The notes below the pieces were generated by a model. The model saw only the letters and a program-made list of their open reading frames with translations. It was not told the DNA's origin and searched no databases. From positions 34,494 through 98,493 of the forward strand of contig CAIYPD010000052.1 of NCBI GenBank assembly GCA_903928075.1: a stretch of DNA of 64,000 nt. Direction: 5' to 3'. How positions within the stretch are numbered: the stretch's first letter is position 1; every line of letters begins with the position of its first letter. The position numbers were made by a program, and so were the translations under genes. The DNA comes from Candidatus Firestoneibacteriota bacterium (GTDB taxonomy: Bacteria > Oederibacteriota > D2-FULL-39-29). Positions 35,574-62,066 of the stretch are shown here, piece after piece.

Positions 35574-36758
35574 CTATTCTACTTTGACTTGTATTTCTCT
35601 TGAATTCTTTTTGGCATCTTCAATTTGTATGAAATAATTCCCGGTCTCGACAGGATTGCCTGAAGAATCAGTTAAATCCCACAAAACCAATGGAGCTTTT
35701 ATGTCCAAGTTCCTGACCGGTTTGTTTTGTGAATTCATAATTTTAATAGTAAGCTTACCGCCCGGAAGATTCAAAAAGCCAACCTTACCTTTGCCTTTCA
35801 GATACGGACCGCCGTAGATCTTTATTTTTTCAAGCGGAGCCGTCCCGCCGGTCCCGGCAAAAGCTGCTTCTGCAGCCGTCGATTCTATTATAGCTTCAAA
35901 GTCACCCATCTGCAAGGATTCCAGCGTAGCAAGATCCCCGTCATTCCATCTTTCGTCAAGAGTGCCGTATATATATGGAAGGCGTCCTCTATCTGCAATG
36001 ATAAAGCCGTATTTTTTTAAACCGACCGCAATAATCTGTGCTTGCGGCCCGAGCTTTGAGATATCTACGGAGTCCTTGAGACGGAACCTCTGACCCATTG
36101 CCGGGAGCTTAGGGTCCTTATTTAGGGCCGGTGAATTTCTGGCCGGATAAACATATCTGTCATCAATGCGGTTGACGACTGCCCTAACAGCGTGATCCAG
36201 GCTGCCTTTTGTTATATCTTGATACCGGACAAGTCCCGGAAGAATAGCCATCCCGGCAGGGTCGGCGGAATAGGCTTTTTCCTTGCGTAAATCATTTGAA
36301 TCTAAATTAAAGATAGCGGCAGAAAAAACAAACCAGGTGTTCGGCCGGCCGGTAAGCCCTGTTTGTCCGTTTAGAAACTCATAGAGTAAATGACTTTTTG
36401 TATCTACAACTATAACCCGGGGATTCTCACCCGCTTCCTTTTGCGCGTCAAAAGGAATCTTATAGGGCCCTTTATCACTGTCTTCCGGTTTGCCGTTATC
36501 ATTAATTTCCACAGGATATTCTTTGCCGTTACTTACCAGCGAATAGGGAATGCCCCGGGCCGAACCAAACCAGGGTTTTAAGGAGTTCTTCCGACCTATA
36601 GACTCTATATAATCGTTGGAGTTTTTATTAACCTCTACCTTGGAAATATTTTGATTCCACGGATTATTTTTAGGAAATATCTGAATAGGAATATCGGGGC
36701 ATTGATACGCAGATAAAACTGCTCCGGTTATCAAAAACACTGCTATTGTTTTTAACAT
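35574..36758 (-). CDS. secreted protein with FlgD-like C-terminal Ig domain
   Basis: ORF 35574..36812; likely start MLKTIAVFLITGAVLSA at 36758. End APLVLWDLTDSSGNPVETGNYFIQIEDAKKNSREIQVKVE resembles FlgD-Ig. Confidence 0.6.
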   Translation of the reverse strand: MLKTIAVFLITGAVLSAYQCPDIPIQIFPKNNPWNQNISKVEVNKNSNDYIESIGRKNSLKPWFGSARGIPYSLVSNGKEYPVEINDNGKPEDSDKGPYKIPFDAQKEAGENPRVIVVDTKSHLLYEFLNGQTGLTGRPNTWFVFSAAIFNLDSNDLRKEKAYSADPAGMAILPGLVRYQDITKGSLDHAVRAVVNRIDDRYVYPARNSPALNKDPKLPAMGQRFRLKDSVDISKLGPQAQIIAVGLKKYGFIIADRGRLPYIYGTLDERWNDGDLATLESLQMGDFEAIIESTAAEAAFAGTGGTAPLEKIKIYGGPYLKGKGKVGFLNLPGGKLTIKIMNSQNKPVRNLDIKAPLVLWDLTDSSGNPVETGNYFIQIEDAKKNSREIQVKVE

Positions 36759-36781
36759 ATTCACCCAGAAATGCGTTAGTT

Positions 36782-36840
36782 TGTAAAGTTCATAAAGTTT
36801 GTAAAGTCTCATAATCGTTGAAATATATTATATAAAAACT
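36782..36840. repeat. left arm of 9-bp-repeat element E1 (array of RTAAAGTYY plus conserved inner segment)
   Basis: GTAAAGTTC ATAAAGTTT GTAAAGTCT CATAATCGTTGAAATATATTATATAAAAA; inverse complement of right arm 37321..37383; inner segment shared with 63546..63655. Confidence 0.75.
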
Positions 36841-37285
36841 ACTTTGCCTTTAATCCTGATGGAGTTGTAGGTTTTTGTTTAAACGAATGCTTTATTGTAT
36901 CAATTGGCGGCTCTATATCATCATCTGAATTTTCTTTGCCGTCCGGGCCATTGCTTCCAAGTAAATAATTAATTGCTTTTCCTTTACTATCTTTTTCAAA
37001 TATTGGTTGATACTTAAGTTTATTTCCCCAATTATCAAAGTGCCATTTTTTGTCAAGATATTCTTCTTTTATCAATACTTCTAAATTTACAGGATAGTTT
37101 TTATAATGACTAAAATACAAATCCAATGACGACTGCACCCCTCGCAGACTTGCATTGCAAGCCGCAATTTCAGCCTCTTTAAGACGACTAGGATTATACT
37201 CTGGCATAATCAGCCATATAATTACTGCCATAGATACAATGGACAAGGCAATTACTTGGATTGTTTGGACTATTTTTGCTCTCAT
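36839..37285 (-). CDS. orphan GspG-like pseudopilin without canonical prepilin leader
   Basis: ORF 36839..37315 begins at TTG; likely start MRAKIVQTIQVIALSIVSMAV at 37285. NSRLKEAEIAACNASLRGVQSSLDLYFSHYKNYP-type region and LLGSNGPDGKENSDDDIEP GspG-type C-terminus. No G|FTLIE motif. Confidence 0.7.
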   Translation of the reverse strand: MRAKIVQTIQVIALSIVSMAVIIWLIMPEYNPSRLKEAEIAACNASLRGVQSSLDLYFSHYKNYPVNLEVLIKEEYLDKKWHFDNWGNKLKYQPIFEKDSKGKAINYLLGSNGPDGKENSDDDIEPPIDTIKHSFKQKPTTPSGLKAK

Positions 37286-37320
37286 TCTTTCAATTCCTTG
37301 AACTATACCAATCAAATAAA

Positions 37321-37383
37321 ATTAAATACCACCTTAGCGTAAGACTTTACAAACCTTACGAACTTTATAGACCTTATAGACCG
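37321..37383. repeat. right arm of 9-bp-repeat element E1 (inverted array RRACYTTAY)
   Basis: ACCACCTTAGCGTAA GACTTTACA AACCTTACG AACTTTATA GACCTTATA GACC. Confidence 0.75.
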
Positions 37384-37386
37384 AAC

Positions 37387-37902
37387 TTAGAACTTTTCGT
37401 AATGCACCATTTCTTTTAACTCTTTTCTTATCCGGACTGCCGGTTCTCCGGCAGGAAAACCCAGAGGGGTTAAAGCAACTACTTTGATATTCGACGGTAC
37501 CCGGAGAATTTTCTCCGCGACAGCAGGATTGAAAGCGCAGACCCAGCAGGTTCCAAGACCCTCATTGGCGGCAGCAAGTATCAGGTGATCAAAAGCTATA
37601 GTCAGATCTACAAAAGCAGCATTAAAATTATCATAGGACCGTTTCCAGGCAGCCTCAATATCAACACAGCCCGCGATAATAACCGGAGCAGTAAAAAACC
37701 ATTCCCGGCTATAAGCTTCTTTCAATTCTTCTTTTACTTTTTTATCTCTAATAACAATAAGATGCACCGGCTGAATATTGCAGGCAGAAGGCGCAAGCCT
37801 TGCCGCCTCCAGAACTTTGCTCAGGACTTTCTCAGATACCGGCTTAGAAAGATCATACTTTCTTATACTTCTTCTTTTATTTATCAATTCAGTATATTCC
37901 AT
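37387..37902 (-). CDS. nitroreductase family protein
   Basis: MEYTELINKRRSIRKYDLSKPVSEKVLSKVLEAARLAPSACNIQPVHLIVI; EGLGTCWVCAFNP. Confidence 0.9.
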   Translation of the reverse strand: MEYTELINKRRSIRKYDLSKPVSEKVLSKVLEAARLAPSACNIQPVHLIVIRDKKVKEELKEAYSREWFFTAPVIIAGCVDIEAAWKRSYDNFNAAFVDLTIAFDHLILAAANEGLGTCWVCAFNPAVAEKILRVPSNIKVVALTPLGFPAGEPAVRIRKELKEMVHYEKF

Positions 37903-37940
37903 ATATTTTTCCCCCGCGTTCAACCTCGTTTTTTGTACTT

Positions 37941-61650: not shown

Positions 61651-61690
61651 ATGGCCCTGCAAAGGTTTTCCCTTGCAGGGCCATATTTTT
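61651..61690 (+). terminator. Rho-independent terminator of the isomerase-like gene, adjacent to rnpB 3' end
   Basis: ATGGCCCTGCAAAGG-TTTT-CCCTTGCAGGGCCAT followed by ATTTTT; 14 of 15 positions pair. Confidence 0.9.
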
Positions 61691-62066
61691 GGGTCCGGGC
61701 CGTAAGCCGAATTCTGTTCTGATAGCCATTTCTCTAAGGATGCATGTTGCCAGGCACCTCTTGCGACCTACCCGGGGAACCAGGCGGCACCACCTTATTG
61801 ACTTCCCCCTATTTGGTCTTGCTCCGGATGGGGTTTGCCCTGCGCTCGCCGGTTACCCGGCGGCCGGTGGTCTCTTACACCACCTTTTCACCATTTCCCT
61901 GAACCTGAAACAGTAAATAGTTCGGGGCTGTATATTTTCTGTGGCACTTTCCTTCACTTGAAGCTTTAACCTCAAGCGACCGCGCGTTACGCGGCATCCC
62001 GGCCTTCTGGAGTTCGGACTTTCCTCTTCCGCCAACGGCGAAAGCGGCTATTCGCGCCGTCCCAAA
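61688..62066 (-). ncRNA. rnpB: RNase P RNA (bacterial class A)
   Basis: Minus strand contains GAGGAAAGTCCGAACTCC, ACAGAAAATATAC, GAAATGGTGAAAAGGTGGTGTAAGAGACCACC and AGAACAGAATTCGGCTTACGGCCC; P1 UUUGGG/CCCAAA sets approximate ends. Confidence 0.95.

Follow-up and report, generated by a model that had tools for sequence, protein, structure and literature searches.

The window analysed here, a 64,000-nucleotide stretch of contig CAIYPD010000052.1 from a Candidatus Firestoneibacteriota bacterium, contains a gene for a pseudopilin-like protein with a GspG domain, which lies between two arrays of a 9-bp unit (Table 1). Units and coordinates are exactly those given by an earlier sequence-only reading of this DNA, and the open reading frame has both a start codon and an AAGGA sequence. 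Pfam assigns the protein to T2SSG with 25.2 bits (cut-off 21), the C-terminal domain that it shares with GspG, the major pseudopilin of type II secretion, and a profile search with the protein retrieves GspG structures. The score against the GspG equivalog is far below its cut-off (24 vs. 88.85). As the same reading had noted, the prepilin leader G|FTLIE is absent, and so is the N-methylation motif; both are present in a paralogue of the same genome at C88 (N_methyl 40 bits). Nuclease or DNA-binding domains were not found in the protein. Its AlphaFold model consists of long N-terminal helices followed by strands and is of low confidence (pLDDT 63, pTM 0.27). The context also differs from that of a secretion operon: no type II secretion or type IV pilus gene was found among the neighbours examined, and the adjoining genes encode a nitroreductase and a FlgD-Ig-like protein.

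Table 1 Features at the pilin-like locus (window coordinates)
Feature	Position	Strand	Remarks
Secreted protein, FlgD-Ig-like C-terminus	35574..36758	-	neighbour outside the element; no tblastn match in G001
Left terminal array	36783..36809	+	3 units of RTAARGTYY: GTAAAGTTC/ATAAAGTTT/GTAAAGTCT; partial unit GTTT ahead at 36779-36782
LE subterminal motif	36810..36830	+	CATAATCGTTGAAATATATTA, variant of the family LE GTCT-aaaATCGTTGAAGGATATT
Leaderless GspG-domain (pseudopilin-like) gene	36839..37285	-	148 aa; ATG at 37285, AAGGA upstream; stop codon ~9 nt from LE
RE subterminal motif	37312..37341	-	TTACGCTAAGGTGGTATTTAATTTTATTTG, immediately upstream of the pilin-like gene; also present at the orthologous site of the sister species
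Right terminal array	37342..37382	-	4 inverted units; whole units at 37343-37378
Nitroreductase-family gene	37387..37923	-	neighbour outside the element; served to locate the orthologous site in relatives

A repeat search returned the two arms as an inverted pair (36779-36809 / 37342-37372) of 31 nt with 87% complementarity, which agrees with their earlier description as inverse complements. The two-unit pattern matched 12 times in the window, compared to 1.75 matches expected, and none of 100 shuffled sequences reached this number. The unit, RTAARGTYY, is non-palindromic and carries neither a GTAG nor a CGTC tag. The RE motif upstream of the pilin-like gene could include its promoter. An Rfam search yielded no RNA family at the element locus.

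The arms are members of a repeat family and not a generic simple repeat. With up to two mismatches allowed, a three-unit RTAARGTYY pattern matched 288 times in the 2.72-Mb genome, while the control, the same pattern read backwards, gave no match. Arrays were present in all nine genomes examined of this Firestonebacteria order but absent from the other 36 genomes of the phylum that were searched. Within the order, the number of matches per genome ranges from 133 to 303 in eight genomes and is 5 in the remaining one (G003). A perfect four-unit match was also found in two IMG/VR contigs, one of them with phage genes; these matches are plain perfect tandem repeats that have neither LE nor RE, and a viral origin was rejected.

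For the anatomy of the family we read 60 array regions of the window genome, 1.11 Mb of G001 (a relative of the same genus, hereafter the sister species) and 0.40 Mb of G002 and G004; element counts for the window genome derive from the retrieved array loci and not from its whole sequence. The general layout is an array with a subterminal motif (LE or RE), a core and an inverted array. LE (GTCT-aaaATCGTTGAAGGATATT) stands inward of the innermost unit in 60 of the 99 arrays examined, and RE (GTCT-TACAYTAAKGTRGTATTTAAT) occupies this position in a smaller set. Arrays less than 1 kb apart pair predominantly head to head (15 +/-, 1 -/+ and 5 same-strand pairs in the 1.11 Mb of the sister species), and 48 of 50 array groups in that genome are intergenic. 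Paired elements mostly measure 100–250 bp and enclose ORF-free cores of 16–120 bp. Many arrays are single-sided or part of mosaics with other repeats. In the window genome, arrays often have a second repeat module (GCAAAGCTTTTCTCGagaGGAAGGatatatagatgtcaactaccgttgacatagCGAGATAA) nested between them, which results in mosaics (L053:1890-1960, L067:2005-2070, L108:1260-1326 and others).

A second locus of the window genome, C30, features the same arms and subterminal motifs and the same RE-gene-LE layout around a leaderless GspG-domain ORF. The sequence-only reading had named the same arms at several loci, with a pilin-domain ORF or with none, as support for its inference, and this is what was observed: C30 holds such an ORF and many loci are ORF-free. 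Among 20 paired elements of the window genome with a core below 700 bp, an ORF of more than 100 aa lies directly between RE and LE in two, the window element and C30, and both encode leaderless GspG paralogues. A further pair, which encloses a malate-dehydrogenase-like gene (L069), was disregarded because two separate elements flank that gene in the sister species. The alignment of the window and C30 loci starts in the 5' array, covers RE, the gene with its stop codon, and LE, and continues into the 3' array. On the stop side, both have an identical 13-nt junction, AAGTAGTTTTTAT, despite near-saturated synonymous sites. The dN/dS ratio between the two genes is ~0.26 with dS near saturation, hence both look maintained as genes. 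Their dS of 1.9 falls inside the range of orthologs between the two species (1.0–2.2); all these values are near saturation, and dating of the duplication by dS was therefore abandoned. In a weak pilin tree, the C30 gene tends to fall with G002 and G004 paralogues sited outside any element; the tree neither backs nor refutes a sister relationship of the window and C30 genes (AU p = 0.076 with both held together).

The canonical GspG paralogue of the window genome (MKKQKGFTLLELMIVIAIIG...) is the one at C88, beside gspF and more pilin-like genes, and part of a near-identical second canonical copy is found at the edge of C119. Elsewhere in the order, leaderless GspG paralogues were found that have no flanking arms. 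Across the order, GspG-domain proteins that lack a leader or are fused are met repeatedly (L116, L118, L129, L130); the variants include two tandem genes behind a peptidase gene, a fusion protein of 471 aa and a form whose N-terminus is signal-like.

Comparison with the sister species separates the element from its gene. Downstream of both the orthologous nitroreductase gene and the orthologous LarA gene, the sister genome has an array, RE, LE and an inverted array and no pilin; a hairpin (TTTTGTAGTTGCTCGATT...) takes the pilin's place. At the nitroreductase site, RE differs between the two species at only about 1 of 18 positions, so the element at the LarA and nitroreductase sites most simply predates the species split, and what varies between the species is the gene inside an older resident element. 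No relative was found to have the pilin at the window site. The sequence-only reading had inferred an element with a pilin-domain cargo. The pilin does not define the family and is not the element's own gene, because most copies and both orthologous sites of the sister species carry a pilin-free element. For some array sites of the window genome, the orthologous position in the sister species is free of arrays. A clean target-site duplication was not found, the alignments of the candidate empty sites being too diverged for base-by-base reading.

A transposase is neither encoded in the window element nor adjoining it, as the sequence-only reading had stated, and screening of the cores of the retrieved array loci revealed no transposase between arms. 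No recombinase or transposase tied to the element ends was found in this screen, and Y1_Tnp was the candidate enzyme searched for. Y1_Tnp/RAYT matches occur in the eight array-rich genomes, and the array-poor G003 alone among the nine has none. Y1_Tnp is also present in array-free genomes, and of the ten Y1_Tnp loci scanned, none lies within an inverted pair of arrays. Arrays of at least three units occur at only two of these loci (L350, L351), on one side and ~0.8–0.9 kb from the gene. Due to its presence in array-free genomes and the lack of flanking arrays at the sampled loci, RAYT was rejected as the mobiliser and is kept as a weak lead. GTAG-tagged REP-like hairpins (TTTTGTAGTTGCTCRATTYATYGAGC) occur in the sister genome, several of them directly behind RE (L309:17260-17320, L311:6700-6760, L346:11597); none was seen in the array loci examined from the window genome.

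Based on these results we favour, as the probable though by no means certain explanation, that the locus belongs to a family of small intergenic elements, specific to this order, non-autonomous and MITE/foldback-like, with a replaceable core, and that a pilin gene sits inside this copy. The termini are formed by the inverted RTAARGTYY arrays followed inwards by two different motifs, LE and RE. Most likely, the repeated units of the arrays are bound by a protein that is provided in trans and mobilises or copies the element. Between RE and LE, the core is not conserved family-wide, and in the window copy and C30 it is taken up by a divergent, GspG-derived leaderless membrane protein gene, apparently under purifying selection and read from RE toward LE. 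The element was presumably already at both sites in the common ancestor with the sister species; the pilin would then have been gained in the window genome or lost in the sister species, inside the resident element and probably via recombination between element copies. Of the earlier proposal of a cassette or non-autonomous element, the non-autonomous element with a gene inside is retained, whereas 'self-contained cassette' is too strong a term because neither a recombinase nor a target duplication was found.

Other accessory genes at array sites bear on an alternative of lower probability, which nevertheless keeps some weight. According to it, intergenic array sites are tolerant hot spots, the arrays act as landing or homology sites rather than as carriers, and the pilin is one passenger gained by ordinary recombination. 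In the sister genome, HicBA adjoins an LE array (L314:8621-9063) that stands bare in the window genome. A Gp49/HTH toxin-antitoxin-like pair (L346:11770-12472) and a gene for a 23S rRNA intervening-sequence (23S-IVP) protein (L301:14712-15077) lie between array pairs of the sister genome, as does a 67-aa two-helix ORF in G004 (L364:17772-18151). At the window locus itself, three further genes (FlgD-Ig, DUF2157 and GDYXXLXY) stand between the element and an epimerase gene, which follows directly after the element in the sister species. Such genes between or beside arrays suggest that array sites are spots of gene exchange in relatives, and they may be general sites of small-gene turnover. However, the genes in the two ORF-bearing RE-LE cores of the window genome belong to one family, are oriented alike and have a common stop-side junction, a pattern that random landing would not give.

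A more far-reaching version of the favoured explanation is a bacterial foldback-type cassette system, in which the ends (array, LE and RE) stay fixed at their sites and small genes (leaderless pilin, possibly toxin-antitoxin pairs, others) enter and leave the exchangeable core or spread together with the element as one unit. We consider this rather unlikely. No case of a gene and its arms moved together as one unit was found.

It is improbable that the arrays are immobile, cis-acting minisatellites or structured transcribed 3' sequences, similar to terminators or mRNA-stability elements, that formed in place and flank the pilin by chance. Such an origin would be in line with the strong folding of short elements as RNA or single strand (z -4 to -8), with a mild bias of arrays toward gene 3' ends (40 vs. 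22) and with the variable number of units, which ranges from 2 to 10 or more. It does not account for the maintenance of LE and RE at many unrelated sites, for the order-specific copy number in the hundreds or for the duplication of a whole short element, two copies of which with a 93% identical core are located at two sites with different flanks. In addition, the arms are no more similar to each other within an element than between elements (permutation p = 0.455), and the notion of a conserved hairpin stem was dropped. The absence of covariation of the arms within elements suggests that the unit sequence is what is conserved, as would be expected for protein-binding sites.

That the pilin-bearing copy is the parental element, with the ORF-free ones as internal-deletion derivatives and the GspG-like protein aiding mobility as RAYTs do for REPs, is very hard to sustain: the layout is identical in both pilin copies and LE and RE are common to ORF-free elements, but no ORF-free core contains pilin remnants, no match to the window protein was found between arms in array-rich relatives such as G001 and G005–G008, and the protein has a pilin-type domain with no nuclease or DNA-binding domain found in it.

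Compared with known systems, the family is of a MITE/foldback-like kind, with termini made of tandem arrays and with a gene inside the window copy; its nearest precedents are foldback transposons and BrickBuilt. Presumably, the tandem 9-bp units bear no resemblance to integron attC sites. The array family is dispersed, short, multicopy and transposase-free, as is typical for MITEs, and has terminal inverted repeats, seen both in the arms of the window locus and in the +/- pairing in the sister genome. With foldback transposons (FB, Galileo and Tetris of Drosophila, TU of sea urchin) it shares inverted termini of tandem sub-repeats around a variable middle domain. In Galileo, additional binding sites for the transposase are located in the sub-repeats (PMC4079207). 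The present family differs from foldback transposons in its 9-bp units, its length of mostly 100–250 bp and its bacterial host, and in that no mobilising enzyme was found; our literature search on foldback elements returned eukaryotic families only. The BrickBuilt MITE of Porphyromonas gingivalis is intergenic, species-limited and multi-copy, and joins a minisatellite whose unit number varies to distinct end segments (PMC4596501), as does the present family. In BrickBuilt, a single internal array of 23-bp repeats lies between leader and tail, whereas here two inverted terminal arrays surround a core that a gene can occupy.

REP/REPIN sequences are likewise high-copy intergenic inverted repeats, and REPtrons and TIRtrons (RAYT, TIRYT) have one gene between repeats (PMC3733652). 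In contrast to REP/REPIN, the present family has no palindromic GTAG/CGTC-tagged unit, and the enclosed gene encodes a pilin-domain protein instead of a tyrosine transposase; unlike in REPtrons, the sampled RAYT genes have no flanking arrays. The window element also resembles mobile insertion cassettes and passenger-gene MITEs, which are reported to have a non-transposase gene between non-autonomous ends (PMC3913671, PMC5444012). It differs from them in that its ends are repeat arrays, for which no cognate transposon is known.

If the favoured explanation is correct, the family would be a bacterial counterpart of foldback elements, with variable tandem arrays as termini and a core able to hold a host gene. 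It would also provide a route by which gspG, a secretion-system gene, can be duplicated, lose its leader and move to another place. With its eight array-rich genomes next to the array-poor G003, the order also offers a natural test set.

Two minor observations concern annotation of the window. The FlgD-Ig-like neighbour has an ORF that extends across the left array (36759-36812; MRLYKLYELYKL...), and the ATG at 36758 is its likelier start; gene callers may therefore mis-annotate N-termini at array sites. Further downstream, at 61687-62063, Rfam identified a full-length RNase P RNA gene (class A).
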